A stretch of DNA of 64,000 nt from Nakamurella deserti (GTDB lineage Bacteria; Actinomycetota; Actinomycetes; Mycobacteriales; Nakamurellaceae), in NCBI RefSeq assembly GCF_003260015.1, contig NZ_QCXS01000003.1, positions 734,315-798,314 on the forward strand. The letters run 5' to 3'. This document shows, piece after piece, positions 12,423 to 29,421 of the stretch. The notes under the pieces were generated by a model. That model made no database searches. It was not told the origin of the DNA and saw only the letters and a program-made list of their open reading frames with translations. How positions within the stretch are numbered: the stretch's first letter is position 1; each line of letters begins with the position of its first letter. The translations under genes and the position numbers were made by a program.

Positions 12423-12462
12423 GGGTGAGGACTTCCTCGGGGTGTGGGGGGAGATGGATCGG

Positions 12463-13575: not shown

Positions 13576-13657
13576 TCTTCCAGTTTCCTGAGGTCTGCGG
13601 GTATTTTCATGACCGAGGGACGTGAATCTCCCGCACGGAACTGTTCTCGGAGGACAA

Positions 13658-14932
13658 ATGGACGTGCTGCCGGCGGGCGCTGCCCAGGTCGACGGTGGTG
13701 CAATCGCCGATGATCTCCGTCTGGACGAGACGACGGTCACACTCCTGCTCGCCCGGCTGCCGGATCTGGCCGCGCACACCGTGCGGGCGATCACCGAGGA
13801 GGTCCCCGCCTACCGCGCCGCCTTCGCCGGCCCGCTGGGTGCGACGATCACCTCGGCGGTGGAGGTCGCCCTGCGTGGCTTCCTCCGGCTGGCCTCGCAA
13901 CCGGCCGCCGACCCGGCCGCCGACGGGCGCACCCGCACCCCCGCGTTGGACGGCGCCTACGACCTCGGACGCGGCGAGGCCCGCGGCGGACGGACGATGG
14001 ACGCGCTGCTCGCCGCCTACCGCGCCGGCACCCGCGAGGCCTGGCGCGAGTTCTCCCGGACCGCACTGGAGACCGGCGTGAGCGCCCGCGGGATGGCCTG
14101 GTTCGCCGAGCTGGTCTTCGCCTACATCGACGGCCTCTCGGCGGCCAGCGCCGCCGGCCACGCCGACGAGCTGGCCATCTCGGGCCGCGTCCGGGAGCGC
14201 TACCTCAGCCAGCTGGGCCTCGGGGTGGTCACCGGCGAGCCCGCCGACCGGCTCGAGAAGCTGGCCGAACGGGCGGGGTGGCGGCCGCCGGCGACGTTCT
14301 CGGTGGTGGTGCTGCCCGGCGGGCAGGCGGCGCGGGCGATGGCGGCCCTGGACGGCCGCACCCTGCGCATCGACGACGACCTGCCCGACCTGACCGAGGA
14401 CGAGCAGTCCGACCTCAGCGTGCTGCTCGTCGCCGACGCCGCGGTGGGACGCCGGCCGGCTGTCCTGCGGTCACTGGACGGGCTGGACGCACACCTCGGC
14501 CCGGCCCGGCCGTGGACGCAGGCCCGGGTGTCCTACCTGCGTGCCCTACGGGCCCGGCGGTGGGGTCTGCGGGGGGCGGGCGTCGCCTGCGACACCGACG
14601 AGCACCTCCCCGCGCTCGTGGTCACCGCCGACCCCGAAGCACTGGCTGACCTGCAGGCCCGTGTGCTGGCCCCCCTGGCCGGGCTGCGCCCGACCACCGC
14701 GCACCGGCTCACCGAGACGTTGCGGGCGTGGTTGCTGCACCAGGGTCGACGCGAGGACGTCGCGGCCGCGCTGCACGTCCATCCGCAGACGGTGCGGTAC
14801 CGGCTGGGCCAGCTCCGGGAGCACTTCGGCAGCCGGTGGGACGATCCCGACGAGGTGGCGGCGCTGACCGTCGCGCTGGTGGTGCCCCCGGAGACGCCGG
14901 CCGGGGATGACGCCTCCGATGGCGGTGCCTGA
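13658..14932 (+). CDS. PucR-family regulator with RsbRD-like N-terminus
   Basis: This 424-residue regulator has a helical N-terminal region (about residues 20-170) that resembles the RsbRD N-terminal domain found in actinobacterial PucR proteins. A GGDEF-like CdaR middle region follows. The C-terminus has a PucR helix-turn-helix: L-L-H-Q-G-R-R-E-D-V-A-A-A-L-H-V-H-P-Q-T-V-R-Y-R-L. GGAGG precedes the ATG at 13658. It is divergent from the reductase-desaturase operon across an 82-bp gap, so control of membrane-lipid desaturation is the simplest inference. The inducing signal is not evident. Confidence 0.88.
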   Translation: MDVLPAGAAQVDGGAIADDLRLDETTVTLLLARLPDLAAHTVRAITEEVPAYRAAFAGPLGATITSAVEVALRGFLRLASQPAADPAADGRTRTPALDGAYDLGRGEARGGRTMDALLAAYRAGTREAWREFSRTALETGVSARGMAWFAELVFAYIDGLSAASAAGHADELAISGRVRERYLSQLGLGVVTGEPADRLEKLAERAGWRPPATFSVVVLPGGQAARAMAALDGRTLRIDDDLPDLTEDEQSDLSVLLVADAAVGRRPAVLRSLDGLDAHLGPARPWTQARVSYLRALRARRWGLRGAGVACDTDEHLPALVVTADPEALADLQARVLAPLAGLRPTTAHRLTETLRAWLLHQGRREDVAAALHVHPQTVRYRLGQLREHFGSRWDDPDEVAALTVALVVPPETPAGDDASDGGA

Positions 14933-15010: not shown

Positions 15011-16084
15011 TCACGCCGTCGTGGACAACACCACCGCGACGCCCAGGGTGGCGCCCATCAGGGAGAGTTCGACCGCGCCCAACCTGATGAGCGGCCCCAG
15101 GCGACCGCTGCAGGCGGCGGCGAGGGTCCGCCTGCGGTGCAGGTGGCCGATCACGACGAGCAGCACCAGCGCCACGGTCTTGGCCAGGATCAGGTGACCA
15201 CGGGGGCTCGTCCACAGCGCTTCCCAGCCGTCCAGCATCAGGATCCCCGCGAGCAGACCCGAGGCACCGACCGCGGCGACACACACCAGTGCCGCCGCGC
15301 TGAACCGCGGGATGGCCCGGCGGAGCTGCTCCGGGAATTTCCGGAGGTGGACGACGAGCGCGAGCAGACCACCGATCCAGACACCCGCAGCCACGATGTG
15401 GACGCCGAGGGAGAGGGCGGAGACCACGATCGCATTGTCGTGATGGGCCGCATGACCGGTCAGGGCGCCGGGCAGCAGCGCACCCGCCGCGGCCACCGCC
15501 AGCAGCCAGGTGCCCAGGGCACCGGACACACGCTCGACGAACAGGACGAGCAGCAGCGCGACCCACAGCGTGACGGCACCGGCCATGAAGCGGTCCGTGC
15601 CGATGAGTGCACGCATCAGCTCCGGACGGGACAACACCTCGGCGGCCGGGACGCCGGCGAGCTCGGACAGGGTCAACAGCGACAGCGCGGTCGCGCCGGC
15701 CAACCACACCCACGCCCATCGCAACGCCACCCGCCGCAGGTGCGGGCCGGCCGGATCCGGGTGGCGGGTCGCGGTCAGACACCGCACGAACAACACCCCG
15801 ACGACCGCGATCCCCGCGAGCTCCTGGACGAACTGCGCCACCGGCAGGCCGGCCCGGGTGAAGGCGCCGGCGTCGGGCAACCCCACCAGGACGGGCGGCA
15901 CCGGCGGCGCGGTCAGCCAGCGCGACACCAGCGTCGCCGTCACCCCGGCGAGCACCATCGCGATGACGACGAAGCGGGCGCCGGGTCGTCGACCGACCTG
16001 CGGCGCGCCTCCGTGGGACGCGACGGCATCGGTGGGCGGCTGCACCTCGGCGCGGGGCCGGGCACTGTCGAGCAGCTGGACCAT
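15011..16084 (-). CDS. CopD-domain membrane protein (copper resistance D family)
   Basis: This 357-residue protein has about eight to nine hydrophobic helices. The CopD-type core carries G-H-A-A-H-H-D-N, a histidine-containing segment at a membrane edge, then H-I-V-A-A-G-V-W-I-G-G-L and a P-R-F-S-x-x-A-L block. CopD proteins are linked to copper uptake or tolerance at the cytoplasmic membrane. It starts at ATG 16084 with GGAG nearby. It is divergent from the histidine kinase gene over a 643-bp gap that holds a perfect inverted repeat. Copper supply to the multicopper oxidase 6 kb away is a plausible role, but this is inference. Confidence 0.85.
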   Translation of the reverse strand: MVQLLDSARPRAEVQPPTDAVASHGGAPQVGRRPGARFVVIAMVLAGVTATLVSRWLTAPPVPPVLVGLPDAGAFTRAGLPVAQFVQELAGIAVVGVLFVRCLTATRHPDPAGPHLRRVALRWAWVWLAGATALSLLTLSELAGVPAAEVLSRPELMRALIGTDRFMAGAVTLWVALLLVLFVERVSGALGTWLLAVAAAGALLPGALTGHAAHHDNAIVVSALSLGVHIVAAGVWIGGLLALVVHLRKFPEQLRRAIPRFSAAALVCVAAVGASGLLAGILMLDGWEALWTSPRGHLILAKTVALVLLVVIGHLHRRRTLAAACSGRLGPLIRLGAVELSLMGATLGVAVVLSTTA

Positions 16085-16372
16085 CGGACATCTCCTGGGT
16101 CTCGGGTCACGGCGGACTGCGCGGGCGGGCGGGACGTCATCCGGTGGTCGGCGAGCTGCGGTGCGGCGGGGTCCTCGGCGCGGCGCCCCGTCGGCACGAC
16201 ACGGTGGGTGCCGTCGTGCGCGACGGTGATCCACCGCCGTCGGACCACGGCCGCCCGGAGGTCCGGACGGGCACGACCGCGCGAAAGGATCGGACACCGA
16301 TGGCCAAAGCTCACCGGTACCTCTAGTCTGACGGCCACGGTCAGTCACCGGAGCCCTCGCGTGGGGGGGTCC

Positions 16373-16395
16373 TGACCCCCCAGAACTGGGGGTCA
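16373..16395. promoter_or_regulatory. perfect inverted repeat, operator-like, site 1 of a shared motif
   Basis: TGACCCCC, a seven-base spacer and GGGGGTCA form a perfect 8-bp-arm palindrome. The core reads six C, AGAACT, then five G. It lies in the 643-bp gap between copD (minus) and the histidine kinase (plus), 333 bp before the kinase start. The same C-rich/six-base/G-rich core recurs in the gaps before the receiver gene, the multicopper oxidase and the secreted protein. The rest of the gap (16085-16727) shows no convincing gene. Confidence 0.55.
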
Positions 16396-16727
16396 CGCGA
16401 CGATCGGGTGCAGAAAGAGCACACAGAGTCACCACGAAGCCGGGGGGTGTGCAGATGCCGGTTCGCCGCCTGAAATGCACGGGAGCCGACCGGTCGACGC
16501 TGGGGTGAGCCCACGGTCGGCCCCGCGAGGCCGGCCTGACCTCGCCGTCGTCGATGCCCGATCGACCGGTCGGCTGCGACGGCGTCACCGGCCGTCCTGA
16601 TCCGCCGATGCCGACCGCCGCCGTGGACGAACGACGCCGCGGACGCCGCACGCCCGGCCGTCCGCCCGCTGACTGCACCGTCGCGGTCCGCCGCGGAAGC
16701 CCTCTCCGAGCCACACCAGGAGCCCGA

Positions 16728-18104
16728 ATGAATGCACCGCCGAGCGCCCGGGCATCCGTCACCGAGCGGAGGCTCAGCGTGGGTGGCCGGTTGCGGATGT
16801 TCTGGGGCGTCGCGCTCCTCGTCCTGCTGCTCATCGCGGCCGGTGCCGTGCTCGCGAGTCGGGCGCTCGCCCGCGACCAGGCGCTGCAGGACGCGGAACG
16901 GATGACCGACCGGCTGGGCCGGTTGGTCATCGCCCCGCTGCTCGGCGATGCGCTCACCGGTGACGTCGCGCGCCGTGTCGAGCTCGACCGCACCGTCGCG
17001 AACCGGATCGCCGACGGTTACCTCGCCGAGGTGACCGTCTGGACCGTGGACGGCACGGTGGTCTACGCCAGCGACGCCGCGGACGTGGGGATGCAGGTCG
17101 ACACCCCGGTCGAAGTGGCGGCGGCGATCACACAGGACGTGCGGAGTGCCGACTTCGCCGAGGAACGCGAGGCGGCGACCCAGGATCACGGCCCGTCGGG
17201 ATCCGGCTACGTGGAGGTGTACGTCCCGCTCGCGGTGGCCGGACAACCGAAGCTCGCGTTCGAGGCGTACTACGACTACGGCCGGGTGAACGAGATGGCC
17301 AACTCGATCCTGCGGAGCCTGCTGCCCCTGGTGCTGATCCCGCTGGTGATGCTGCAGCTCATCCAGGTCCCGATCGCGGTGTCGCTGGCCCGTCGGGTGA
17401 AACGCCACGAATCCGAACGCGCCGCCCTCCTCGAGCGCAGCCTGACCGGGTCGGAGAAAGAGCGCATCCGGATCGCCGCCGATCTGCACGACGGGCCCAT
17501 CCAGGACCTCGCCGGCATCGGCTACGCGCTCGGTGCGGTCAGGGTGTCCGCCGCGGAAGCCCAGCAGCCGGTGCTGAGCACCGTGCAGGACTCCGTCCAC
17601 CGCGCCATCGATTCGCTGCGCCGGATGATGGTCGACCTGTACCCGCCCGACCTGAACGCGGCCCAGCTGCCGGCGACCATCGCAGACCTGACCGTCCCGC
17701 TGCGCGACAGCGGCATCGCGGTCGACGTGCAGTTCGACGACGAGCCGATGCCGGAACTGGACCCTTCCACCGTCACCGCGCTGTACCGGGTGGCCCGCGA
17801 GGCGCTCGCCAACGTCGCCGAACACAGCCGGGCCACCGCGGTGACCGTCAGGTTGGCGGTCGACACCGGGGGCGACGGCAGCGGAGACGGCGGCACCATC
17901 GTCCTCAGCGTCACCGACAACGGTGTCGGCATCGATGTCGGCGACCTCGACCGGCGGGGAGAGGGCCACCTCGGTCTGCGTCTGTTGCGTGACCGGGTCG
18001 AATCGCTGGGCGGCACCTTCGCCATCGGCCCCGCCGGTGATACGGGAACCCGCGTGAGTGCCGCACTTCCATGGGGTGGCGGGACGGCTGCGGCGACGTC
18101 GTGA
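16728..18104 (+). CDS. NarL-type sensor histidine kinase
   Basis: This 458-residue membrane histidine kinase has a first transmembrane helix at about residues 24-44 and an extracytoplasmic sensor domain of roughly 140 residues. A second helix with L-L-P-L-V-L-I-P-L-V-M-L-Q-L follows. The HisKA_3 box E-K-E-R-I-R-I-A-A-D-L-H-D-G-P-I-Q has phospho-acceptor His254. The HATPase domain shows R-E-A-L-A-N-V-x-E-H-S, D-N-G-V-G-I-D and G-L-R-L-L-R-D-R-V. I chose the ATG at 16728, which has AGGAG at good spacing. Its ligand is unknown. It heads a cluster of exported redox enzymes and is followed by a receiver-only regulator. Confidence 0.93.
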   Translation: MNAPPSARASVTERRLSVGGRLRMFWGVALLVLLLIAAGAVLASRALARDQALQDAERMTDRLGRLVIAPLLGDALTGDVARRVELDRTVANRIADGYLAEVTVWTVDGTVVYASDAADVGMQVDTPVEVAAAITQDVRSADFAEEREAATQDHGPSGSGYVEVYVPLAVAGQPKLAFEAYYDYGRVNEMANSILRSLLPLVLIPLVMLQLIQVPIAVSLARRVKRHESERAALLERSLTGSEKERIRIAADLHDGPIQDLAGIGYALGAVRVSAAEAQQPVLSTVQDSVHRAIDSLRRMMVDLYPPDLNAAQLPATIADLTVPLRDSGIAVDVQFDDEPMPELDPSTVTALYRVAREALANVAEHSRATAVTVRLAVDTGGDGSGDGGTIVLSVTDNGVGIDVGDLDRRGEGHLGLRLLRDRVESLGGTFAIGPAGDTGTRVSAALPWGGGTAAATS

Positions 18105-18179
18105 CCCACGCGACCGGTGGTGTTCCGGCGGCGGAGGCTCCACCCGGCCGCGACGCCACGGTGTGCCGCCCGCGCGGGG

Positions 18180-18199
18180 CACCCCCCTCATTAGGGGTG
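18180..18199. promoter_or_regulatory. operator-like motif, site 2
   Basis: CACCCC pairs with GGGGTG around a short spacer. The core is six C, TCATTA, four G (18182-18197). It lies in the 216-bp gap between the kinase and the receiver gene, ending 124 bases before the receiver start. It matches sites near 16376, 23098 and 25948. Confidence 0.5.
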
Positions 18200-18320
18200 G
18201 ACACCGGAGAACCCGCCCAGGATGCTCGAAGTCGGCGGGTGCGCGTGACGGCGCCGACCCGACTGCTCCGGCGAGACGTCGGCAGGACGACTCTCGCGGA
18301 TGACAGGAGGAGGTAGCCGG

Positions 18321-18734
18321 ATGGTCAAGGTCATGCTGGTGGACGACCACGCGTTGATCCGTGCGAGCCTGTCGTTCCTCCTCCGCGAGACAGCGGGATT
18401 CGAGGTGGTCGGCGAGTGCGCCGACGGCGCCGAGGCGCCGGAACAGGCGCGCCGGCTCCGTCCCGACGTCGTCCTCATGGACGTCAACCTGAACACGACC
18501 TCGGGCATCGTCGTCACGCGGGATCTGCTCCGCATCACGACCGGCGTGCGGGTGCTGATGCTGAGTGGTTCGGTCAACGCACGGATACTCCAGGAATCGG
18601 CCCTCGCCGGAGCCAGCGGCTTCGTGTTGAAGGGCGGCGATCCGCGGAATTTGCTCGCTGCCGTCCAGGATGTCGCCGACGGCGGCACGGCGTGGCCCGC
18701 CAGGCATGCGGTGCGCGGCGGCCGGCCCGCCTGA
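18321..18734 (+). CDS. receiver-only response regulator
   Basis: This 137-residue protein is a NarL-type receiver domain without the usual C-terminal LuxR helix-turn-helix. The acidic pair D8-D9, phospho-acceptor D54 (V-V-L-M-D-V-N-L), the L-M-L-S-G-S switch Ser and the V-L-K-G-G Lys are all present. The chain ends 15 residues after the receiver fold. The ATG at 18321 has AGGAGGAGGT just upstream, so the start is secure. It follows the kinase gene by 216 bp. It could be a phosphate relay or sink, or a remnant of a full NarL-type regulator. The region after the stop does not read as a helix-turn-helix in the other frames. Confidence 0.85.
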   Translation: MVKVMLVDDHALIRASLSFLLRETAGFEVVGECADGAEAPEQARRLRPDVVLMDVNLNTTSGIVVTRDLLRITTGVRVLMLSGSVNARILQESALAGASGFVLKGGDPRNLLAAVQDVADGGTAWPARHAVRGGRPA

Positions 18735-19228
18735 TCCCGCCCCGCCGAACCCGGTGACGCCGCCGCCCAGGATCCCGACCGATCGCGATTCCGCGTCGTT
18801 GAGTTCCACAGCCCGCCGGTGGAGGATCGGGTCGTCGGGCCTCCGGCGGCAACGGTTCCTGCTGCGCGGCCTCTGACGGTGGCGGTGGCGATCAGGTGCT
18901 CACGTCGCAGCGGTGGTCCGCTCGACCGACCGAGCACCCCCGCTCACCGCTTCGATTCTGGCGTCAGAAGTGTCTGCCCTCGTGCAGTCGCCCGCACCAG
19001 CCGGTACGGCAGTCTCTCGTTCACCCTCTGCTCCACCCCGTCCGCTCACGCGTCGATGCACACTCCTGGACCAATCCAGCCGCACATTTTCTCTACTCCA
19101 CCCCGATTGCCAGCCCGAACCGGCTGGTCGATAATCAGGTCGAGGGGTCGACAGACGGCGGTGGTCACTCTCCGTACGAATCGACACCCCGGTGGGCACG
19201 ACCCCTGCAGCGAAAGGTTGCCCCGACC
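18735..19228. other. 494-bp gap before the peroxidase gene
   Basis: I see no convincing gene here. The second half is less GC-rich than its surroundings, as in a regulated promoter region. I did not find the C-rich/G-rich motif seen in the other gaps of this cluster. Confidence 0.5.
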
Positions 19229-20848
19229 ATGTCCGAGGCCGCGACAGGTGGTTCCAGGTTCAGTCGACGATCGGTGATCACCGGCGCAGCCGGTGCAGCG
19301 GTCGCCACCTCGCTGGTCCTCGGCGGAGGCAGGGCGGAAGCCGGCGTTCCCACCGGCGCGTGGGGGCACGGCGGTGCGGCCACGCTCCGCGGCGCCGATG
19401 TGGTGGTCAAGCTCGGCCGTACGCGCCAGGGCAAGTTCGGACTCATGTTCCCGAATCTGAAGCCGTACACGCCGCCGGAATCGGCCCTGACGAGGCTGGC
19501 GGCCACGATGGTCGACCGCCGTCCACCCGCACCCGATCCGTCCGCCGCGCGGGATGGTTTCGACAATTTCGCCGTGCCGTCCGGGTACACCTTCCTCGGT
19601 CAGTTCATCGACCACGACATCACTCTCGACCACACACCGCTCGAACAGGCCACCGCCGATCCCCAGGGAATCCGGAATTTCGAATCGCCGGCACTGGATC
19701 TCGGTTCGGTCTACGGCCGCGGCCCTACCGCCGACCCGCACCTGTACGACACGGCCCGCAGACCCGCCGGGTTCCTCAAGGTGGACATCCGTGACGGCGT
19801 GGAGGATCTACCTCGGGACGCGAGCGGCAAGGCTGTCGTCGGGGACGCACGCAACGACGAAAACCTGATCATCGCGCAATTGCACGCTGCATTCCTCTGC
19901 CTGCACAACACGCTGATGGAAAGCGGGATGAGCTTCGCCGCGGCACGACAGCAGGTGACCTGGCGCTATCAGTGGTTGGTCGTGAACGACTACCTGCCTC
20001 GGATGTGCGGTGCGGACGTCGTCCAGTCCATGCTCGAACGGCCGAAGACGGGCCTGGGCCTGCGGTTCAAGAACAGCCTGTACAAGCCTCAGAACCTGAC
20101 CAAGCCGATGATGCCGCTCGAGTTCGCCGTCGCGGCCTACCGCTTCGGCCACACCATGATCCGGCCGGAGTACGAGCTGCACGACAACCACACGAAGCCG
20201 ATCTTCGGTGCCGAGGGCTACGACCTGCGGGGGCGCCGGTCGGTGCAGCGGGAGGACCGCATCGACTGGAGCTACTTCTTCGACATACCGGGGATGTCGG
20301 TTCCCGAGGGCCGCAACTTCGCGCGGCTCGTCGACGCCAAGCTGTCGCTCCCGCTGGCCACGCTCCCCGCCACCGTCGTCGGTGACTCACCTGTCGCCGC
20401 ACTGGCCGAGCGGAACCTGTTGCGGTCCGTGCGGCTGGGCCTGCCCGGCGGCAAGGCGGTCGCGACGGCCATGCGGCTCACGCCGCTGACCGACCAGCAG
20501 CTCGGAGTCAACGACCCCAAGCTCGGCGGGGATGTGCCGCTCTGGTACTACGTCCTCAGAGAAGCCGAAGTACTCAAGGGCAGCCGCGTCCTCGGCCCGG
20601 TCGGTGCCCGCATCGTGGCCGAGTGCATTCTCGGTTTCATCGCGCTCGACCCGACGTCGTACTTCAGCTCCGGATTCACCCGCGAGCCCGGGTACGGGAT
20701 GGGTGCGTTCCTGGTGGAGGCCGGGGTGGTCCAGCTCGACGAGCGCATGGCGCCGGATCCGGAAGTCCCGGACCTACCGGAGGAGCCGGAGCTGCCCGAG
20801 GATCCAGGACTGCCGGAGGCGCCGGACGCTCAGGAGCCGCCGACCTGA
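19229..20848 (+). CDS. Tat-exported animal-type haem peroxidase
   Basis: This 539-residue protein belongs to the peroxidase-cyclooxygenase (animal haem peroxidase) superfamily. The N-terminus is a twin-arginine signal (SRRSVITGAAGAAVAT) with a likely A-E-A cleavage site, so it acts outside the membrane. The distal site is G-Q-F-I-D-H-D-I-T with His129, and the proximal ligand is His308 in Y-R-F-G-H-T-M-I-R-P. The last 30 residues are a Pro/Glu/Asp-rich tail. Relatives oxidise halides, phenols or Mn(II) with peroxide; MopA of Mn-oxidising bacteria is one. The gene stops inside the end of the convergent signal peptidase gene, overlapping it by 19 bp. The exact substrate is unknown. Confidence 0.9.
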   Translation: MSEAATGGSRFSRRSVITGAAGAAVATSLVLGGGRAEAGVPTGAWGHGGAATLRGADVVVKLGRTRQGKFGLMFPNLKPYTPPESALTRLAATMVDRRPPAPDPSAARDGFDNFAVPSGYTFLGQFIDHDITLDHTPLEQATADPQGIRNFESPALDLGSVYGRGPTADPHLYDTARRPAGFLKVDIRDGVEDLPRDASGKAVVGDARNDENLIIAQLHAAFLCLHNTLMESGMSFAAARQQVTWRYQWLVVNDYLPRMCGADVVQSMLERPKTGLGLRFKNSLYKPQNLTKPMMPLEFAVAAYRFGHTMIRPEYELHDNHTKPIFGAEGYDLRGRRSVQREDRIDWSYFFDIPGMSVPEGRNFARLVDAKLSLPLATLPATVVGDSPVAALAERNLLRSVRLGLPGGKAVATAMRLTPLTDQQLGVNDPKLGGDVPLWYYVLREAEVLKGSRVLGPVGARIVAECILGFIALDPTSYFSSGFTREPGYGMGAFLVEAGVVQLDERMAPDPEVPDLPEEPELPEDPGLPEAPDAQEPPT

Positions 20849-21354
20849 TCCTCACAGGCGGACGACAGCCGCCAGAGCAGCCGACCGGTGACCTGTGACA
20901 CCGGTATCGGCCCGTAGACGCGGGAGTCGATGGACCGTTCCCGGTTGTCACCCATCACGAAGACGGTGTCAGCCGGGACGGTGACCGGTCCGAAGTACAC
21001 GCCGTCGATGCTCGCGTGGTCCACATAGGGCTCGTCCACCGCGATCCCGTCGACCTCCAGCTGGGCGTCCTTGATCGCAACCCGGTGTCCCGCTGTCGCC
21101 ACCACCCGCTTGATCGCGAGGTCACCGTCGGAGGGGCTGGAGAAGGTGACGATGTCGTCCCGCGAGATGCCCTGCGAACCCTGACCTCTCGCGAGGGCGA
21201 GGGTGTCGCCCCGGCACACCGTCGGCTCCATGCTGTCCGACGTCACCGTCACGGAATCGATGACCTGCGTCCTGACGACGACCACCGCGATCACCACGAT
21301 GGCTGCCGCCAGGAAGGCCTTCCGGTTCCGACGCCGGCCGATGGCCCGCTGCAT
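20830..21354 (-). CDS. lepB: type I signal peptidase, small
   Basis: This is a 174-residue signal peptidase I with one N-terminal membrane helix (about residues 13-27). The catalytic Ser41 is in T-S-D-S-M-E-P-T and the Lys82 is in A-I-K-R-V-V-A. The terminal box is V-F-V-M-G-D-N-R-E-R-S-I-D-S-R. Its ATG is one base after the TGA of the multicopper oxidase gene, so the two are almost certainly cotranscribed and coupled. Such a placement suggests a peptidase dedicated to exported proteins of this cluster. That is inference; it may also serve generally. Confidence 0.93.
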   Translation of the reverse strand: MQRAIGRRRNRKAFLAAAIVVIAVVVVRTQVIDSVTVTSDSMEPTVCRGDTLALARGQGSQGISRDDIVTFSSPSDGDLAIKRVVATAGHRVAIKDAQLEVDGIAVDEPYVDHASIDGVYFGPVTVPADTVFVMGDNRERSIDSRVYGPIPVSQVTGRLLWRLSSACEDQVGGS

Positions 21355-21355
21355 G

Positions 21356-22951
21356 TCAGATGGGGGTGGGCGGGTCCGCCCAGATCGGATCGTTGTCGTC
21401 GAGGTCGCTCTCCTTGAGCCCGACACTGAACTGGTGCATCATGTCGTGATCCTCGTGCGGCAGGTTGTGGCAGTGCACCATGTACTTGCCCTTGTGCGGC
21501 CCGAACTTCATGATGACCTTGACCGTCTCGCCCTCACCGACGTAGACGACGTCCTTGGGGCCGAGCTCGTAGTTGAAGGGTGCGCGACCGTTCCGGCTGA
21601 GGATCTTGAAGTCGATCAGGTGGATGTGCACCGGATGGAACCACCCGCCTGAGTTGTTCTGGATCTCCCAGACTTCGGTGTCACCCAGATTCGGATCGGC
21701 AAGCACCTTCTTGTATCCGGAATCCACGACGTCGTGCCAGCTCTCGCCGTTGAGGTTCCACTCGTTGGTCGTGTCGTCGCGCTGCACGCGGATGTTGCGG
21801 ACCTTGAACCTGCCCGTGTCGACGAGGTTCATCACCTCGTTGCCGGGGTTCAGCGTTCCCGGGATCGTCGACGACGTGGGGTCGTTCTTGTCGAACGGGT
21901 CGTCCACCACGTCGAATGCCATGATCTTGCCCGTGAAGTCGTAGTCGCGGTTGTTCGGATTGCTCAGGTTCCGCAACTCGATGCGCTGCCCGGCCTTGAA
22001 GTTCCGGAAATCGATCAACACCTCGTACCGCTCGGCGCTGCCGTGCCGCCACGATGTCACCTGCTGCGATTTCGGCATCAATCCACCATCGGTGGCCACC
22101 ATGTACATCGGCGCCGCGGGGGAGGTCGTCGGGCGGTAGGACCGCGAGATCGACGCGTTCAGGAAGCGGAAGCGGTAGACCCGCTTCTTGACCTTCATCA
22201 CCGGCCACGGCGTGCCGTTGGCCAGGATCACGTCGCCCCACAAGCCCGAGTGGCTGCGGTCGTCGTACATCTGGGATCCGTTGGCGGCGAACATCATGTC
22301 GGACAGGGTCACCGCGACGTCGAATTCGCCTTGGGGCAGCAGCGCCTGTTCCTGCGGGTCGTGCAGGTGGTACTGCGACGCCAGGCCGGAGTAGGCGTTC
22401 TGCGCCGTGTAGTGCACGCCGTGGTCGTGGTACCAGAGCGTGCGCGCGTTTTGGAAGTTCGGGTACTGGTACGTCTTCTTCTGGCCGGGGGCGGTGACGT
22501 CGCTGGCGTAACCGTCGTACTGCGGAAGCGATGCCGACCCGTGGAGGTGGGTCGAGATACCCATCGGGGTACCGAATGTCGGGTGCGCCGGCGGCAGGTT
22601 GTTGTACATGGTCATCTTGATTCGGCGACCCTGCTGCACGTCGATCCGCTTGGCGGGTACAAGTCCGTCGTAACCGAGGACCGGCGTCTGCAGACCGGGA
22701 ACGATGCCGGCCAGACCGGGAACGGCCTTGATGTGGTACTCGTCGAACGGGCCGTCGGCATCCGTGCCGACGGTGGGCGTGAGGACGCCGAGCCGGGTGA
22801 ACGGTGCGGCGAACACCTTGGGCATCTTGGACGTCGGGAGCAGGCTCGCCGAGGAGGCGCTGACGCCAGCACCCCAGGGCAGGGCCAATCCCGCAGCCCC
22901 GGCGGCCGCCAGACCGCCGAGCTTGAACACATCGCGCCGTGACACAGCCAT
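21356..22951 (-). CDS. Tat-exported multicopper oxidase
   Basis: This 531-residue three-domain multicopper oxidase has a twin-arginine signal (SRRDVFKLGG) at the N-terminus. The copper motifs are T-H-L-H-G-S, W-Y-H-D-H, H-P-V-H-I-H-L and H-C-H-N-L-P-H-E-D-H-D-M-M, the last with the type 1 Cys, His and axial Met. The architecture resembles CotA and phenoxazinone-synthase-like oxidases. These take electrons from phenols, bilirubin or metal ions such as Mn(II) and reduce O2 to water. AAGGA precedes the ATG at 22951. It is followed after one base by lepB. Two C-rich/G-rich operator-like sites lie upstream. Confidence 0.93.
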   Translation of the reverse strand: MAVSRRDVFKLGGLAAAGAAGLALPWGAGVSASSASLLPTSKMPKVFAAPFTRLGVLTPTVGTDADGPFDEYHIKAVPGLAGIVPGLQTPVLGYDGLVPAKRIDVQQGRRIKMTMYNNLPPAHPTFGTPMGISTHLHGSASLPQYDGYASDVTAPGQKKTYQYPNFQNARTLWYHDHGVHYTAQNAYSGLASQYHLHDPQEQALLPQGEFDVAVTLSDMMFAANGSQMYDDRSHSGLWGDVILANGTPWPVMKVKKRVYRFRFLNASISRSYRPTTSPAAPMYMVATDGGLMPKSQQVTSWRHGSAERYEVLIDFRNFKAGQRIELRNLSNPNNRDYDFTGKIMAFDVVDDPFDKNDPTSSTIPGTLNPGNEVMNLVDTGRFKVRNIRVQRDDTTNEWNLNGESWHDVVDSGYKKVLADPNLGDTEVWEIQNNSGGWFHPVHIHLIDFKILSRNGRAPFNYELGPKDVVYVGEGETVKVIMKFGPHKGKYMVHCHNLPHEDHDMMHQFSVGLKESDLDDNDPIWADPPTPI

Positions 22952-23074
22952 GAGAATTCCTTCGACCCGGAGACGTTGACGAGTGGGATGGCGATATGTC
23001 GATCCAGGACTCAGGTCTTCGTCGACCGTCCCCGCCACTGGGTCAAGAATCCCGGAGCGGCTCACGATCAGGAA

Positions 23075-23112
23075 CCCCGATCAGGGGGGGATGGAGTCCC
23101 CTAAAGTTGGGG
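23075..23112. promoter_or_regulatory. tandem operator-like motifs, site 3
   Basis: There are two elements in tandem: CCCC-GATCAG-GGGG at 23075-23088, and CCCC-TAAAGTT-GGGG at 23098-23112. The near edge is 124 bases from the oxidase start. The second matches the consensus of the other three sites (Y, four C, Y, W-N-A-N-Y-W, GGGG). Confidence 0.5.
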
Positions 23113-23739
23113 AGCACGTGACACCCAGTCACCGACTTGGTATACGTGCGTGCAGGAAACCGGACATCCGCGCATCGAGCCCTGCGAGCGGTCACTCACC
23201 GCGCACGGCGTGCGGCATCCTCGACGCGGAGCCGGAACGGGCCCTGCGCTCCTGGGGTGAGGCCGCTGTCGCGGACGTCGCCGACACCCTGAACCCGCTC
23301 ACGGAGTCGATGGCTTCGTCAACCGCACCGTCTGCCGGTGGAGCTCGCGACGGCCCGGGACGCAGAGAGGTGTCGCCCGGTCGGTCCGGAGACGGGACGT
23401 CCAACTCGTCGTGGGTGTGGATGGTGTGCTCGCCCCGGTGGGGCGCCGGCGTGCCTCGGGTCGCTGTCCGCACCCACCGGAACAGCGGTGGAACCGCAGG
23501 AGCCCACGTGGCCGGGTTACGGGCGGCTTTGTTCCGCCACGCCGGAAGCGGCTCGGCCGGTCGGGTGCCGCCGTCGCGCCGTGGTGTCCACGGACCGGCG
23601 CGACAGCGCTCACCGCGTGACGCCGAGAGCCGGTCTGCGCGTCGACGCCCACGACACACGTCGCCGAGGCCGTGCGGCCCAGCGCCCTGTTGGTCGTGCC
23701 GATGCGCCTCGAGGACACCGACGGCCGGGAACGCAGAAG

Positions 23740-23773
23740 AGCGTGCGGCGGGCCTGCCGGCCCGCCGCACGCT
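23740..23773 (-). terminator. terminator of the secreted-protein gene
   Basis: AGCGTGCGGCGGGCC pairs perfectly with 23759-23773 over a four-base loop. On the minus strand the stem is followed by a T-rich run (TCTTCTGCGTT). It begins 16 bases after the stop codon of the secreted-protein gene. Confidence 0.8.
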
Positions 23774-23788
23774 TGGGTGCGGGGTGGA

Positions 23789-25825
23789 TCAGCCAGTCAG
23801 AGCGAACGGAGCGCTGACTCCCAGTTCCTTGCCGCTGCCGTCGAACAGCTTGGCGACGATCTGGCCGGGGTTGGTGGTCCCGGTCAGCGCGGTGGTACGG
23901 AACCGGCCGTCGAAGGTGGAGCCGGTGGCCGGGGCCACCGCCGCGACCAGTGCGGTCGGACCGGCGTACTGGGTGCTGAAGGTGCCGTCGGCCGACTTGC
24001 GGTAGAACCGGACGACGCTGGAGGTCAGGGCCGGCTGGTCGGTCGTGCCCTGGATGCGGGTGTCGGCGTTCTTCCACCGGCCCGAGCTGATGGTGACCTT
24101 GGCGGAGGCCACCGGCGTCGTCGCTGTCGCCGCACCGGATGGAGCGCTGGACGACGCGCCGTACAGCGCCTTCACCGTGAACGAGTACTTCGTGTCCGAG
24201 GCCAGCCCGGTGACGATCTGGTTGGTGTCGGTGGTGACGACCGGCTGGGTGGCAAGCGGGGTGATCGTGCCGTCGGCGGCCACGGTCGAGGCCTCGACCT
24301 GGTATCCGGTGACCGGGGTGCTGCTACCGGACGGCGCGACCCACTTCAGCGCCACCTGGCCGATGCCGGCCGTGGCGGCCAGACCGGTGGGGGCGTTGAG
24401 CACCTGGGCGCCGGCCGGCTTGTAGAAGCCGATGGCCTGCTTGGAGATGTTGCCGGCCCGGTCGATGGCGACGGCGTGGATCTCGGTCAGCGCGGTGATG
24501 GCGATCGGGGACCTGTACAGCTGTGCGGTGTCGCCGGGCAGGTCGCCGAGGACGGCCTCACTGCCGTCGGTGGTGAAGTACACGTCGGCCGCACTCTCCG
24601 AGCCGAGGGTGACGCTGGTTGCCTCGACCGCGGTCTCGGCCGTGTTGCCCGAAGCCGCCGGGTTGATGGTCAGGTTGGGCGCGGTCTGGTCGGCCGGCAG
24701 CTCGCCGGTGCCTGCGGTGGGAGCCGGCTCGAACGGGTCGCCCATCTTGGCGCCGGCCACCGAGCGGACCTCGACCGTGTAGTCAGCCACCGCCGGGTCG
24801 ACGGCCAGGGTCGCGCCGGTGGCGCTTGCACCCACGCGGCTGCCGACGAATGTGCCGTCGGCCTTGAGCGCCGCGACATTGTAATTGGTGATGGCAGGCG
24901 TACCCGCAGGGGTATCGGCCGGCGTCCACTTCACGGCGAGCTTCGTCTTGTCCGCGGAGCGGGTCACGGTGTAGCTGGCCTTCGGGGGGGCAGAGTCAGC
25001 GGGACCGGCGGGGCAGCCGCCCATGCCGGGGCCGCCGAACTCGCCGAACTCGGAGATGGTGAGGCCCTGGCGGTTCGCGTCCGCGTCCTCGACCTGCCAG
25101 GACATGAAGCGTTCGACCTGCGTCGCGGCGGCGGTCTGGGCCGCCTTCAGGGTGTCGAAGTCGAAGGTGGCGGTGAACCTCCCGTCGGCCATCTCCAGGT
25201 TCGAGGAGTAGCCACCCTTGGGGGCCGGCGCGAGGCCACCGGTGACGGCGCGGACATCGCGCTTGCCGACGAGGGCGGTGAGGTCCGGGTTCACGATCCG
25301 CACCTCCGCCTGGCCGGCGATGACGTCGGGGCCGTAGGTGCCCGTGACGGTCACGGTGTTCCCGCTGAGGGCAGCGTGCGCGGCCGCACTGCCGGTGCTC
25401 GTGATGGTGTCACCGCTCGCACCGTCGGAGAACGTGATCGAGACCTTGTCGCCCTTCTGGATGTCCGGGGTCACGTTGAGGCCGGTGCCCGCGCCCCAGC
25501 ACACCCCGCCGGGGTGGTTGATCTCGAAGGCGACGTCGCCCTCGGCCACGGTGCCGACCGCAGACCCAATTACCTGGCTGCCGCGGGTCACGGTGACGGT
25601 GGCCGTCTCGCCGATGTGGTCCTGGTAGCCCTCGATGGTGACGAAGTCACGGTCCGGGAACACGACGACGTTGTCCGGGTACGTCGGTACCGCCGCCTGT
25701 GCGACGCCCATGCCGACTGCACCGGCACTGAGGATGCCCATCGCTCCGGCGACAATCATCGGGAGCCGGCGATGCCCGGTTCCTCTCGACGGGGTGGTGG
25801 CCACCCCTCGTTCGATTCTGCTCAT
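23789..25825 (-). CDS. secreted protein with fibronectin-III and chitobiase-type domains
   Basis: This 678-residue exported protein has a Sec-type signal with a likely A-Q-A cleavage after residue 44. Next comes an unfamiliar beta-rich region (about residues 45-260) with an internal G-G-V-C-W-G segment and a G-G-C segment near its end. A fibronectin-III-like domain follows, then a chitobiase C-terminal-like domain (V-Y-F-T-T-D-G-S ... A-V-A-I-D-R-A-G-N), then a clear fibronectin-III domain (A-P-T-G-L-A-A-T-A ... Y-S-F-T-V-K-A-L). A final beta region closes it. No enzyme motif and no LPXTG anchor are seen, so it looks like a matrix or binding protein. AGGAGA precedes the ATG. It may be a substrate or scaffold for the nearby oxidases; that is inference. 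Confidence 0.85.
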   Translation of the reverse strand: MSRIERGVATTPSRGTGHRRLPMIVAGAMGILSAGAVGMGVAQAAVPTYPDNVVVFPDRDFVTIEGYQDHIGETATVTVTRGSQVIGSAVGTVAEGDVAFEINHPGGVCWGAGTGLNVTPDIQKGDKVSITFSDGASGDTITSTGSAAAHAALSGNTVTVTGTYGPDVIAGQAEVRIVNPDLTALVGKRDVRAVTGGLAPAPKGGYSSNLEMADGRFTATFDFDTLKAAQTAAATQVERFMSWQVEDADANRQGLTISEFGEFGGPGMGGCPAGPADSAPPKASYTVTRSADKTKLAVKWTPADTPAGTPAITNYNVAALKADGTFVGSRVGASATGATLAVDPAVADYTVEVRSVAGAKMGDPFEPAPTAGTGELPADQTAPNLTINPAASGNTAETAVEATSVTLGSESAADVYFTTDGSEAVLGDLPGDTAQLYRSPIAITALTEIHAVAIDRAGNISKQAIGFYKPAGAQVLNAPTGLAATAGIGQVALKWVAPSGSSTPVTGYQVEASTVAADGTITPLATQPVVTTDTNQIVTGLASDTKYSFTVKALYGASSSAPSGAATATTPVASAKVTISSGRWKNADTRIQGTTDQPALTSSVVRFYRKSADGTFSTQYAGPTALVAAVAPATGSTFDGRFRTTALTGTTNPGQIVAKLFDGSGKELGVSAPFALTG

Positions 25826-25947
25826 TGCGCGTCTCCTGCGACGTAGGCGGGACTCGGTCCCGAGGGGAACGTGACCTCTGCGGTCCATGCCCTCCACAGT
25901 CGACGTCGCCGGCCCCCCGTCGGCAGCCCGATAGAGGGGGTCCGCGG

Positions 25948-25963
25948 CCCCCCATATTTGGGG
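25948..25963. promoter_or_regulatory. operator-like motif, site 4
   Basis: Six C, ATATTT, four G. It lies in the 351-bp divergent gap between the secreted-protein gene (start 123 bases away) and the LuxR-type response regulator (start about 214 bases away). It matches the sites before the other genes of this cluster. The rest of the gap (25826-26176) holds no gene. Confidence 0.5.
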
Positions 25964-26176
25964 AAACCGATTGATTGCGGGCGAGCCTCACCGGCCGGAT
26001 CCGGGGGCGTCTGCACGGGAGCACCGGCGCGGGATCCACGATCATCACGGGCACCGACGGCCGGTTGGCCCTCCCAGCGGCCGACACGAACGGATGATAC
26101 ATTCGTCGTCAATCGCCCCCATGGGGACGAATCGGAAGGCGACTGTTACTGTCCGTGCACAGAACTCGGGACTGCC

Positions 26177-26872
26177 ATGACCTTAGATGCCCCAATGGGA
26201 TCAGATGAGGCACGTCGAACCGGGTTCCGGGACCTGACGATCCTGGTCGTCGACGATCACCGTTCGTTCGCCGATCTGCTGTCCGTCGCCTTGAACAGCG
26301 TGTCCGGGATGCGGTGCGTCGGTACCGCCAGCTCGGCGGCCGAAGGGATCACGCTGGCTGCCCGCCTCAAGCCCGACATCGCGGTGATGGACATCCAGAT
26401 GCCCCGGCAGGACGGGCTGGCCGGGAGTCGACGCATCCGCGAGGCGTCCCCGGACACCATCGTCGCGGTCGTCACCGCCCACCGGGACCCGGAGTGGGTG
26501 TCCAAGGCCGCCCAGGCCGGCGCCTCGGCGTTCATCCCCAAGGACGGCTCGCTCGACGAGATGATCGGCGTCCTGCGCCGCGTGCGCCAGGGGCACATGC
26601 TGGTGGCTCCGTCGGTCTTCGGCCCGTCGACGTCGACCCACCGTCACGAGCCGGAGACGCAGGCGAACCTGACCCAGCGGGAGTTGCAGGTCCTCCAACT
26701 GCTCGGACGCGGGACGACGGCGACCCAGGCCAGTCAGATCCTCGGCATCACGCTGAACACCTGCCGTGGGTACATCAAGTCCCTGCACCTCAAACTGGGG
26801 GTCAGCAGCCAGCTGGAAGCCGTCGTGAAGGCGCAGCAATTAGGGCTCATCGGACCCGGCGACGAACGGTGA
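26177..26872 (+). CDS. NarL/LuxR-type response regulator
   Basis: This 231-residue response regulator has a receiver domain with D26-D27, phospho-acceptor D72 (I-A-V-M-D-I-Q-M-P) and a F-I-P-K-D Lys. A LuxR-type helix-turn-helix follows: L-T-Q-R-E-L-Q-V-L-Q-L-L-G-R-G-T-T-A-T-Q-A-S-Q-I-L-G-I. It is a complete DNA-binding regulator, unlike the truncated receiver 8 kb away. The two ATGs at 26177 and 26195 are both possible starts, with no strong ribosome-binding site. It is divergent from the secreted-protein gene and is the best candidate to bind the recurring C-rich/G-rich motif. It is the last host gene before the integrated element. Confidence 0.92.
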   Translation: MTLDAPMGSDEARRTGFRDLTILVVDDHRSFADLLSVALNSVSGMRCVGTASSAAEGITLAARLKPDIAVMDIQMPRQDGLAGSRRIREASPDTIVAVVTAHRDPEWVSKAAQAGASAFIPKDGSLDEMIGVLRRVRQGHMLVAPSVFGPSTSTHRHEPETQANLTQRELQVLQLLGRGTTATQASQILGITLNTCRGYIKSLHLKLGVSSQLEAVVKAQQLGLIGPGDER

Positions 26873-27731: not shown

Positions 27732-28316
27732 CTACCGTCCGCAAACTTTACAGGTCACCGAGTAGTAGATGTCGTCTTGCTTTTCGTCGACGTCTTGCTG
27801 CACAACCAGCTCAGAGATTGGCGCTCCGCAGTTATCACAGCACACGTAAATTTCGCCGCCTGGCAGTGTCAGGACTTGGATGTCCGACTCGACCAGCGCC
27901 TCCTGGATAGCCATCAGGCGCTCAGCATTGTTCCGGAAGCCCATGATGAGGTTGACTGCCGCGTCTACATCGTCGGTCCGGAGATCCACCCACAGGAGGT
28001 GACTGATGATTGTCGGCAGTGGCGTGTCGTCCAGGATCACCGGGATCACCCGCACTGTTGAGGCAGGAGCCAGGCTCCTGTTCAGCCCAGTCGCGAACTC
28101 GGTCTCCACCCACCGTGCACCGTTGGCGTTGGTAGACCAGCAGGCCAAGATCTGGTCCATTGTCTCCAGGCCCTCGTTGACCTTCAGCGGGATCGAGTCG
28201 CCCGGTCGCATCGCCCACTCATCGAGCCATACATCTGCGCCGGCCAACTGGAGCTGACGGCTCAACGCTCGCACTCGTGGCTTGTCGCGGTGGTTATGGG
28301 ACATGAACAGCTTCAC
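27732..28316 (-). CDS. TIR-domain protein with C-terminal zinc ribbon
   Basis: This 194-residue protein starts with a TIR fold (K-L-F-M-S-H-N-H-R-D, then V-W-L-D-E-W-A-M-R-P-G-D-S-I, then A-R-W-V-E-T-E-F holding the likely catalytic Glu). Its C-terminus has two Cys pairs, C-D-N-C and C-K-V-C, about 25 residues apart, that look like a zinc ribbon. Bacterial TIR proteins are often NAD+-consuming effectors of antiphage defence. I chose the GTG at 28316 because it overlaps the upstream stop in a GTGA junction and sits right at the start of the TIR fold. It is translationally coupled to the gene of unknown family before it. Confidence 0.82.
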   Translation of the reverse strand: MKLFMSHNHRDKPRVRALSRQLQLAGADVWLDEWAMRPGDSIPLKVNEGLETMDQILACWSTNANGARWVETEFATGLNRSLAPASTVRVIPVILDDTPLPTIISHLLWVDLRTDDVDAAVNLIMGFRNNAERLMAIQEALVESDIQVLTLPGGEIYVCCDNCGAPISELVVQQDVDEKQDDIYYSVTCKVCGR

Positions 28317-29023: not shown

Positions 29024-29421
29024 GATCGCCCCTTCTACGCCTCCGAAACATCCTCTGACGTGCTCAAATAGCTCCAGATGTTCGACGCACACGTTAACCT
29101 AATTGTCGGCACCACTGCGACGCCGCCAAGCCCTGTGACATGTGCAACGACGTCGTGATCGTTCTGGGTGATGGCCATCGGCTCGACACCAGCAACGGAC
29201 CCGCGGGAGCGATGTACGGCCGACTCGAGCACCTTCGAGGCCCCGCCCTCGGGTTCCGCAACCCAACCAGTTACAACGCCTGATCGCTGCTCGGGAACGG
29301 CGGGTTCAGACCAGCACTACACCGTCGATGCGATGACACACTGATAGTCAGCTCCAACGTCACCGAGGGCACTTTCTGTCATCTGCGGAACAACCTGCCG
29401 TCGACCCCACGATAGCGAGGA
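29024..29421. other. 398-bp gap between cargo genes
   Basis: It lies between the stop of the nuclease-NTPase gene and the start of the TIR-partner gene, both on the minus strand, and probably holds the promoter of the TIR pair. I see no gene and no clear repeat. Confidence 0.45.

Follow-up and report, generated by a model that had tools for sequence, protein, structure and literature searches.

The eight genes at 15011..26872 of the window, the whole 64,000-nucleotide stretch of Nakamurella deserti DNA that was analysed, very probably make up one co-regulated module, as judged from the sequences. A conserved gene set and an upstream motif common to its genes were demonstrated by comparison with other genomes, and because the set is conserved and a palindrome stands upstream of cassette genes, also on other contigs, we suggest that they form one regulon in this lineage. 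The explanation as a whole, one regulon encoding an exported oxidation system with Mn(II) as its most likely substrate, has in our judgement somewhat less than an even chance of being right. Mn(II) as the main substrate is in itself a tentative best guess by analogy, to which the exchange of the peroxidase with MopA-like giants led us. The genes are as follows, their starts (CopD 16084, HK 16728, receiver 18321, POX 19229, SPase 21354, MCO 22951, FN3 25825, RR 26177) having been read off the translations:

15011..16084, minus strand: CopD-family membrane protein (copper transport/delivery); Pfam CopD, 3.3e-16
16728..18104, plus strand: HisKA_3 sensor histidine kinase (HK); Pfam HisKA_3, 4e-10, and HATPase_c
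18321..18734, plus strand: single-domain (receiver-only) response regulator; Pfam Response_reg, 4e-22, no DNA-binding domain
19229..20848, plus strand: short animal-type haem peroxidase (POX) with a twin-arginine signal; Pfam An_peroxidase, 9.4e-16
20830..21354, minus strand: type I signal peptidase (SPase), directly downstream of MCO; Pfam Peptidase_S26, 3e-34; TIGR02227
21356..22951, minus strand: multicopper oxidase (MCO), bilirubin-oxidase-like, with a twin-arginine signal; Pfam Cu-oxidase_3/_2
23789..25825, minus strand: FN3, a secreted protein with a conserved two-Cys N-terminal domain, CHB_HEX/fn3 and a C-terminal beta domain; Pfam fn3, CHB_HEX_C_1
26177..26872, plus strand: LuxR/NarL-type response regulator (RR); Pfam Response_reg and GerE

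All eight were found as open reading frames by an ORF and Pfam check of the window, with domains that agree with the gene list of the preliminary description. Its reading of the cluster as exported redox enzymes under two-component control is supported, and the set is also conserved outside the N. deserti genome.

In a sample of 297 other genomes of the order (298 with N. deserti), a cassette-type MCO (E ≤ 1e-90) was found in 20, and 18 of these also had a peroxidase, eight a close POX and ten a giant, with thresholds for close MCO, POX, FN3 and giant picked after viewing the score lists (E ≤ 1e-30 for the giant was set at the search). The stricter MCO tier used first (E ≤ 1e-130) gave a peroxidase in 16 of 18 genomes; G064 and G146, with MCOs of 42-43% identity, were added after the giant search. 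At E ≤ 0.001, some match to POX, MCO and FN3 was present in 48, 176 and 19 of the 298 genomes, respectively. Thus, the conserved co-occurrence on which the preliminary description had staked its reading was found. Within the genus, only 2 of 16 other genomes had a cassette MCO together with a peroxidase. G074 has seven of the eight genes in one uninterrupted block, ordered Rec-RR-HK-MCO-SPase-FN3-POX, and the order Rec-RR-HK-MCO(-SPase) was observed in G197, G092, G283 and G212, RR-MCO-SPase-giant in G087 and Rec-giant-MCO-SPase-CopD in G013. Since blocks of these genes recur in other genera and families, the grouping is more than chance on this sequence comparison. That the genes are unrelated neighbours with no common role is extremely hard to credit: the window genes are divided between both strands, and several genomes have POX and FN3 away from the MCO, but the co-occurrence and a common operator at unlinked genes argue against it.

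The regulatory genes are shared as well. HK relatives in the cassettes of seven related loci showed 41-52% identity (33% for the HK of G036), and, of the RR, the cassettes of G005, G074, G197, G092, G283 and G212 have versions with 53-65% identity and that of G036 one with 40%. The frame of the receiver ends 125-145 residues past the receiver start in all 12 loci inspected, which are receiver-only, and the phospho-acceptor set D8, D9, D54 and K104 is invariant in the 10 aligned sequences. For these reasons the short receiver appears to be a genuine single-domain regulator, and the idea that its 144-aa ORF is a broken gene was rejected.

The candidate operator is a CCCC-N6-GGGG palindrome with an A/T-rich core, which was first spotted by eye in the window and tested afterwards. 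The predicted sites in the window, given without strand, are the following:

16378..16391: predicted operator CCCCAGAACTGGGG between the CopD and HK genes; pattern scan, matrix score 22.2, from a matrix built on the same sites
18184..18197: predicted operator CCCCTCATTAGGGG, which precedes the receiver gene; pattern scan and matrix
23075..23088: predicted operator upstream of MCO; pattern scan and matrix
23098..23112: second predicted operator upstream of MCO, reading CCCCAACTTTAGGGG on the MCO strand, with a spacer of 7 bases
25950..25963: predicted operator CCCCATATTTGGGG between the divergent FN3 and RR genes

The strict form (6-base spacer, at least three A/T, no mismatch) was chosen among eight spacer/AT/mismatch settings counted. 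The motif set, put together with a different aim in mind and prior to the discovery of the motif, consisted of 29 sequences, the window and 28 of 34 fetched regions. In these 564,705 bases the strict palindrome occurred 27 times, and all 27 were located upstream of a cassette gene at a distance of no more than 400 bases, two of them counting as near with starts set by hand (the L044 giant and the L049 FN3); such upstream zones make up 5.8% of the bases. Fifteen other G/C tetramer palindromes occurred 0-4 times near cassette genes and 4-82 times elsewhere in the same set. Counted by upstream region, a strict site was present in 24 of 42 cassette regions and absent from 18, and it was found in 3 of 329 other regions, namely that of the G013 giant and, in G036, those of the RR and the c19-like gene, which are divergent. 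Fourteen extra loci outside the motif set (L050, L051, L052, L055, L108 and L111, and L217-L224, which were scanned separately later) gave three new sites, near the start of the G036 giant, inside the G064 MCO and, in L050, away from any cassette; the site in L108 is a copy of one already counted, as this locus overlaps L109.

The sites also precede POX and FN3 genes on other contigs. A strict site stands before POX in six of seven other close-POX genomes with upstream sequence, and in five of those six the POX and the cassette MCO are on different contigs. The window POX has no operator directly upstream, the nearest being about 1 kb away, before the receiver gene. Genome-wide, CCCCANNNNTGGGG was found at two places in G197 and four in G216 (the POX site accounting for one in each genome), at five in N. 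deserti (two in the cassette) and at seven in G005 (one in the cassette). Of the three places outside the window in N. deserti, one is inside an ORF, and no clear regulon member was seen near them. The pattern CCCCNNNNWTNGGGG gave 15 rows in the N. deserti genome, of which five (four places) were in the cassette, and the reversed control pattern gave seven. In 80 more distant named loci (the best 80 of at least 554), the palindrome was not enriched, with six sites near cassette genes and ten elsewhere; three of those six precede the SPase, inside or just after the MCO gene. Two Pseudonocardia loci with a 62-64% identical RR had no palindrome site.

The MCO is a three-domain multicopper oxidase carrying all four copper motifs (HxH, HxH, HxxHxH and HCHxxxHxxxxM), and the copper residues H136/H138, H176/H178, H440/H443/H445 and H494-C495-H496/H500/M505 are invariant in 12 aligned sequences. 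Its best PDB match is fungal bilirubin oxidase (2xll, 3e-92), and it shares the three-domain type and the copper motifs with this enzyme, CotA and CueO, but differs from them in being linked to a peroxidase and a signal peptidase. The latter, one of three Peptidase_S26 matches in the N. deserti genome, passes the curated TIGR02227 cut-off for signal peptidase I (117.5 bits vs 47), and the MCO-SPase pair is kept in 54 of 71 more distant named loci (from the best 80 of at least 554). The bilirubin-oxidase/CotA group oxidises phenolics, and so do animal haem peroxidases; a laccase/peroxidase pair for the oxidation of dye, lignin or humic phenolics, or for dark pigment synthesis, would fit the type of the MCO. 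However, the neighbour clusters with at least four genus labels, of which those unmatched by the cassette queries were scanned with Pfam, include no evident aromatic catabolism or pigment gene, and we regard this function as quite improbable. The CopD gene adjoins the cassette in the window and in G005 and G013, is next to MCO/SPase also in L043, L044 and L119, and occurs no farther than 10 kb away in 5 of the 80 named loci (the best 80 of at least 554). This position would suit a copper defence in which the MCO detoxifies Cu(I) like CueO, CopD handles copper and the kinase senses it. We give this view very little credence: most cassettes are without a visible CopD, the CueO model reaches 194 bits on the window MCO against a cut-off of 525, and we know of no role in copper defence for a haem peroxidase or FN3.

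The window POX (539 aa) has an An_peroxidase domain alone, without RTX repeats. It belongs to the animal haem peroxidase (peroxidase-cyclooxygenase) superfamily, with the domain above the Pfam cut-off and the distal and proximal motifs QFIDHD, GDARNDEN and RFGH present, and QFIDHD, GDxRNDEN and RFGH are conserved across the rows of the short-type alignment; the roles of these motifs (distal Q..DH, Arg/Glu and proximal His) are assigned by analogy with myeloperoxidase. The second class is represented by the giant of the congener G013 (2147 aa, L044:1184-7627), which combines An_peroxidase, RTX and FnIII within a cassette, and the ten giants counted above are its relatives. By domain plan the G013 giant agrees with the definition of long peroxicins in the introduction of PMC6247904, large proteins with a peroxidase domain and hemolysin-type Ca-binding repeats. 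The Pilimelia giant likewise has a peroxidase domain and RTX repeats, and Arthrobacter giants carry other, surface-anchor-like ends, as judged by eye. No giant was found in the N. deserti genome at E ≤ 1e-30. Comparison of the genomes shows that the two peroxidase classes alternate among genomes with the cassette MCO, as a close POX and a giant occurred together in none of the 20 cassette-MCO genomes; the mutual exclusion is limited to close POX, since G235, which has a giant, also holds two POX-family matches that are distant (42-44%). Within 10 kb of the MCO, a peroxidase was present in ten of the 80 named loci (the best 80 of at least 554), nine times a giant and once a POX (Kocuria rosea).

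The preliminary description had likened the cluster to the set of Pseudomonas putida GB-1 (MnxG, McoA, MopA; MnxS1/S2/R), which similarly unites an MCO and an animal haem peroxidase in one organism with a two-component system. The manganese-type analogy is reasonable because the G013 cassette carries a protein of MopA architecture, but in the window itself it holds in part, and a kinship of the window genes with the GB-1 set is not supported: unlike MopA, the POX is a short protein free of RTX, and bilirubin oxidase is the closest PDB match of the MCO. MnxR is a sigma-54-class regulator, whereas the window has an RR of Response_reg and GerE (NarL/LuxR type) and a HisKA_3 kinase, and in the window a signal peptidase and an FnIII protein seem to belong to the same regulon as the other genes. 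A passage in PMC11930936 reports sigma-54 sites in the mnxG and mcoA promoters of GB-1, and one in PMC6247904 counts Mn(II) oxidases in both the MCO and the peroxidase class. The giants of G013 and Pilimelia resemble, by domain plan, MopA and the long peroxicins of Erythrobacter SD-21, Aurantimonas and Roseobacter AzwK-3b in their peroxidase domain and RTX, and that of G013 is similar in length to the SD-21 protein (2147 vs 2138 aa, the latter as given in PMC6247904), but the giants carry FnIII repeats, and the window has a short peroxidase instead.

To our knowledge, the genes of Mn(II) oxidation in actinobacteria are poorly defined. BoxA of Arthrobacter sp. QXT-31 (ANG58850.1), which we take to be a bilirubin-oxidase-like MCO, comes from the most frequent genus of named cassette MCOs among the matches listed. 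It is tabulated among experimentally characterised Mn-oxidising proteins in a section of PMC12896264, and this listing makes uncertain the earlier statement that no such actinobacterial system had been described; as for the gene set itself, no description was found in the open-licence PMC literature searched. Arthrobacter strains were isolated as Mn oxidisers, according to an excerpt of PMC8533519. Nothing in the window sequence is specific for Mn(II). A linkage of the cassette to Nramp/DtxR was not supported, with no Nramp and two DtxR matches in 109 cassette loci, beyond one case of Nramp seen on the Arthrobacter plasmid L198.

The secreted proteins near the cassette are more variable. FN3 relatives are 43-48% identical, with the N-terminal half most conserved, and the FN3 and c19 families have a common C-terminal domain; AlphaFold models (pLDDT 62 for FN3 and 70 for c19) gave Foldseek matches to generic FnIII/Ig-type proteins with low TM-scores. 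A common C-terminal sorting signal on all of the big secreted proteins was rejected, as the giants end differently from FN3 and c19. It may be supposed that MCO and POX cross-link their own secreted protein (FN3, c19 or the FnIII repeats of the giant) into a wall or matrix layer, for example via tyrosine radicals. Such large beta-repeat proteins are common neighbours, at least one being present within 10 kb in 32 of the 49 named loci that extend 8 kb to either side (from the best 80 of at least 554), and the shared C-terminal domain and the linkage of the signal peptidase to the MCO are consistent with this role. On the other hand, in 17 of these 49 loci no FN3, c19 or giant is that close, FN3, c19 and the giants differ from one another in their N-terminal parts, and the giant has a peroxidase domain of its own. 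We consider cross-linking unlikely, while leaving it some weight.

In the explanation that we prefer, oxidation of Mn(II) by a single regulon, the membrane kinase would signal to the LuxR-type regulator. The receiver-only protein is probably a buffer of the phosphate flow, and the regulator, which we infer to bind the palindrome, would act at the CCCC-N6-GGGG operators. There the regulator would turn on the haem peroxidase, the secreted beta-repeat protein and the MCO along with the SPase that belongs to it. CopD probably supplies copper to the MCO, and the MCO, using O2, and the peroxidase, using peroxide or, as described for MopA, O2, would share an extracellular substrate, which they would oxidise at the cell surface, with the FnIII protein perhaps as a surface or matrix partner; the most likely substrate would be Mn(II), converted to Mn(III)/(IV). 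It is a possibility, albeit a doubtful one, that this is an unrecognised Mn(II)-biomineralisation regulon of Actinomycetota, in which a bilirubin-oxidase-like MCO with its own SPase works with a peroxidase of two interchangeable forms: a MopA-like giant with RTX and FnIII, or a short Tat-exported enzyme accompanied by a distinct FnIII protein. Control would be exerted by the kinase, the LuxR-type regulator and the receiver-only protein. The proposed compact regulon, the predicted operator and the two exchangeable peroxidases lend themselves to direct knock-out, reporter and binding tests. Our findings suggest that the MCO and peroxidase routes, which are usually studied apart, can form one system.

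The gene set occupies 15.0–26.9 kb of the window in the 4.6-Mb genome of N. deserti, with Pfam support for every member:

CopD-like protein, minus strand
HisKA_3 histidine kinase (HK), plus strand
receiver-only protein (Rec), plus strand
short animal haem peroxidase (POX), plus strand
signal peptidase I (SPase), minus strand
multicopper oxidase (MCO), minus strand
secreted FnIII/CHB protein (FN3), minus strand
LuxR-type response regulator (RR), plus strand

Twin-arginine signals were read from the sequence at the N-termini of POX (SRRSVITG) and MCO (SRRDVFKL), and FN3 carries a Sec-like signal. POX retained the haem-peroxidase motifs and MCO the copper motifs, the closest PDB match of the latter being the Myrothecium bilirubin oxidase (3e-92). 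The genome holds one animal haem peroxidase match and three Peptidase_S26 matches. The RR is of the NarL/LuxR type and is 53–65% identical in six related cassettes. In the receiver-only protein the phosphorylation site is intact and no DNA-binding domain follows; this protein may act as a phosphate sink.

Just outside the cassette, genes that by eye resemble a fatty-acid desaturase and a ferredoxin reductase lie at 11205–14932 beside a PucR-type regulator (HTH_30); tblastn gave no cassette-adjacent match to them in the fetched loci, save a weak reductase match in one (L055). On the other side, GC content falls at 27732–31767 (59% in the 28–30 kb bin and 56% in the 30–32 kb bin, vs about 70% around). 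This stretch, which may be an acquired defence island, encodes a TIR-domain protein (27732–28331; TIR_2, 2e-24) and a large ORF (29422–31767) whose N-terminus by eye resembles a restriction endonuclease and which also has a region resembling an NTPase.

We searched 298 genomes of the order (N. deserti included, evenly drawn from a larger group) for POX, MCO, FN3 and the peroxidase domain of a giant protein of the congener G013 (E ≤ 1e-30 for this domain). The MCO scores showed a gap, with 20 other genomes at E ≤ 1e-90 and the next at 2e-76. A close POX (E ≤ 1e-139; next score 2e-86) was found in eight of the 20, the giant in ten and both in none; neither was found in G152 (79% complete) and G162. 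A stricter first MCO tier comprised 18 genomes, 16 of them with a peroxidase. In the reverse direction, MCO was present in 8/8 close-POX genomes, 8/8 FN3 genomes (E ≤ 1e-15) and 10/12 giant genomes, G073 and G133 having the giant without a close MCO. The association of MCO with either peroxidase gave a hypergeometric p of 1e-24, which ignores phylogeny and uses thresholds chosen after the score lists were seen. The 20 genomes are spread over eight families, with seven in f16, presumably the Geodermatophilaceae, and five in f2. The family of N. deserti is represented in the sampled set by one genus (17 genomes). Close MCO is absent from 14 of the 16 other genomes, and the distribution of the cassette is patchy because only G005 (MCO 74% and POX 51% identical) and G013 (MCO 68% identical, plus the giant) have it.

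According to Pfam, the 2147-aa giant of G013 contains An_peroxidase, RTX and six FnIII matches, and it fits the way PMC6247904 describes MopA-type long peroxicins. Among the 25 matches listed, its N-terminal region together with the peroxidase domain is about 42–46% identical to plasmid-borne proteins, mostly alphaproteobacterial and not known to include tested Mn oxidases. The other nine of the ten giants have peroxidase domains 68–82% identical to it; the FnIII/RTX part was assigned by Pfam in G013 and Pilimelia only, whereas for the giant loci of G087, G064, G065, G235, G105 and G036 the assignment is by similarity. POX and the giant belong to peroxidase subclasses that are far apart (25% identity when aligned). 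G235 additionally has two distant POX-family matches (42–44%).

Gene order was compared by tblastn of the window proteins against the fetched regions. G074 has Rec-RR-HK-MCO-SPase-FN3-POX on the same strand, G005 has HK, RR, Rec, SPase, CopD and MCO in a single 6-kb block, and G197, G092, G283 and G212 have Rec-RR-HK-MCO, then SPase where the contig extends far enough. The order is Rec, giant, a 278-aa protein, MCO, SPase and CopD in G013, and RR, MCO, SPase and giant in G087. The 278-aa protein (L044, 7755–8591) has no Pfam match.

We also scanned 80 loci with organism names, the best of at least 554 (MCO 51–75% identical), mostly from Arthrobacter and relatives but also from Microlunatus, Pseudonocardia, Cryobacterium, Cellulomonas, Kocuria and others. 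SPase followed MCO on the same strand within 1 kb in 54 of the 71 with 1.5 kb downstream. Within 10 kb of MCO in these loci, many of them incomplete, were HK (22), RR (22), receiver-only-like proteins (7), the secreted family c19 (26), FN3 (13), CopD (5), the giant (9) and POX (1); the HK and RR matches listed were mostly 31–55% identical and some may be paralogues. In two loci (L136, L140), RR, HK, FN3, MCO and SPase share a single stretch with a giant that is truncated at the end of the locus.

Other neighbours recur around MCO. The c19 proteins (L118, L129, L134, L144, L158 and others) are secreted, of 650–810 aa, with little Pfam coverage and a conserved N-terminal motif of about PSWYxDSxGxRVExCLD. 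On a plasmid of Arthrobacter sp. FW305-BF8 (L198; NZ_CP084562.1, 11902–22764), MCO, a c19-type protein and two more MCO-domain genes adjoin a metal-dependent regulator and an Nramp divalent-metal transporter. A protein of 170–260 aa with one apparent membrane segment and no Pfam match usually lies upstream of MCO (21 ORFs, eight genus labels; e.g., L179 9189–9749, L128 9364–9876). Under 11 genus labels a SARP/BTAD regulator lies close to the cassette (L142 6753–7808, L123, L133, L159 and others), where it may be an alternative regulator of these enzymes.

CCCC...GGGG palindromes, a predicted operator, were first noticed upstream of MCO and FN3 in the window. The motif was tested in the window and 28 loci from eleven other genomes (G005, G013, G074, G092, G197, G212, G216, G244, G283 and the more distant G036 and G235; 564,705 bases), and these loci were selected for cassette genes in related genomes, so the sites are non-independent. 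Strict sites (CCCC-N6-GGGG with three or more A/T core positions) occurred at 27 places, four in the window, and each lay no more than 400 bases upstream of a cassette gene (POX 7, giant 2, MCO 3, Rec/RR 6, FN3 7, c19-like 1, CopD 1), a zone covering 5.8% of the sequence. As controls, 15 other G/C tetramer palindromes, including the reversed GGGG-N6-CCCC (four and four), gave 0–4 near and 4–82 elsewhere. Per gene, 24/42 cassette upstream regions had a strict site vs 3/329 others, those three also being cassette genes. The informative point is that POX (G005, G197, G283, G216, G092) and FN3 (G197, G092, G283, G212, G244) have sites even on a different contig from MCO. POX of G244 has a 7-base spacer, that of G212 has its upstream region cut off by the contig end, and several f16 MCOs have only a looser form. 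No site directly precedes POX in the window (best matrix score in the gap, −0.2), and this gene would depend on the site preceding the receiver gene. Among the 80 named loci the motif showed no enrichment, with six sites near cassette genes and ten elsewhere, compared with one and 14 for the reversed control. RR similarity is not a full explanation of this: of the four named loci whose RR reaches 50% identity or more, Microlunatus carries two sites, neither of them counted as near, a Propionibacteriaceae MAG carries one before MCO, and two Pseudonocardia carry none.

Since the two peroxidase subclasses alternate, and FnIII repeats accompany the peroxidase when it is the giant of G013, the comparison argues that POX and FN3 would do the same job as the giant. 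The MopA match of this giant, together with the known Mn oxidases that both enzyme classes include (PMC6247904), makes Mn(II) the leading candidate substrate, to which we give somewhat less than even weight; the main rivals are that the enzymes cross-link the secreted protein or oxidise phenols. Another publication (PMC12896264) includes BoxA from Arthrobacter QXT-31 in its list of experimentally characterised Mn-oxidising proteins, and the possible orthology of BoxA to the cassette MCO is a lead only. Our data support the view that the cassette would be an exported oxidation system under common regulation, with the MCO and the animal haem peroxidase belonging together.
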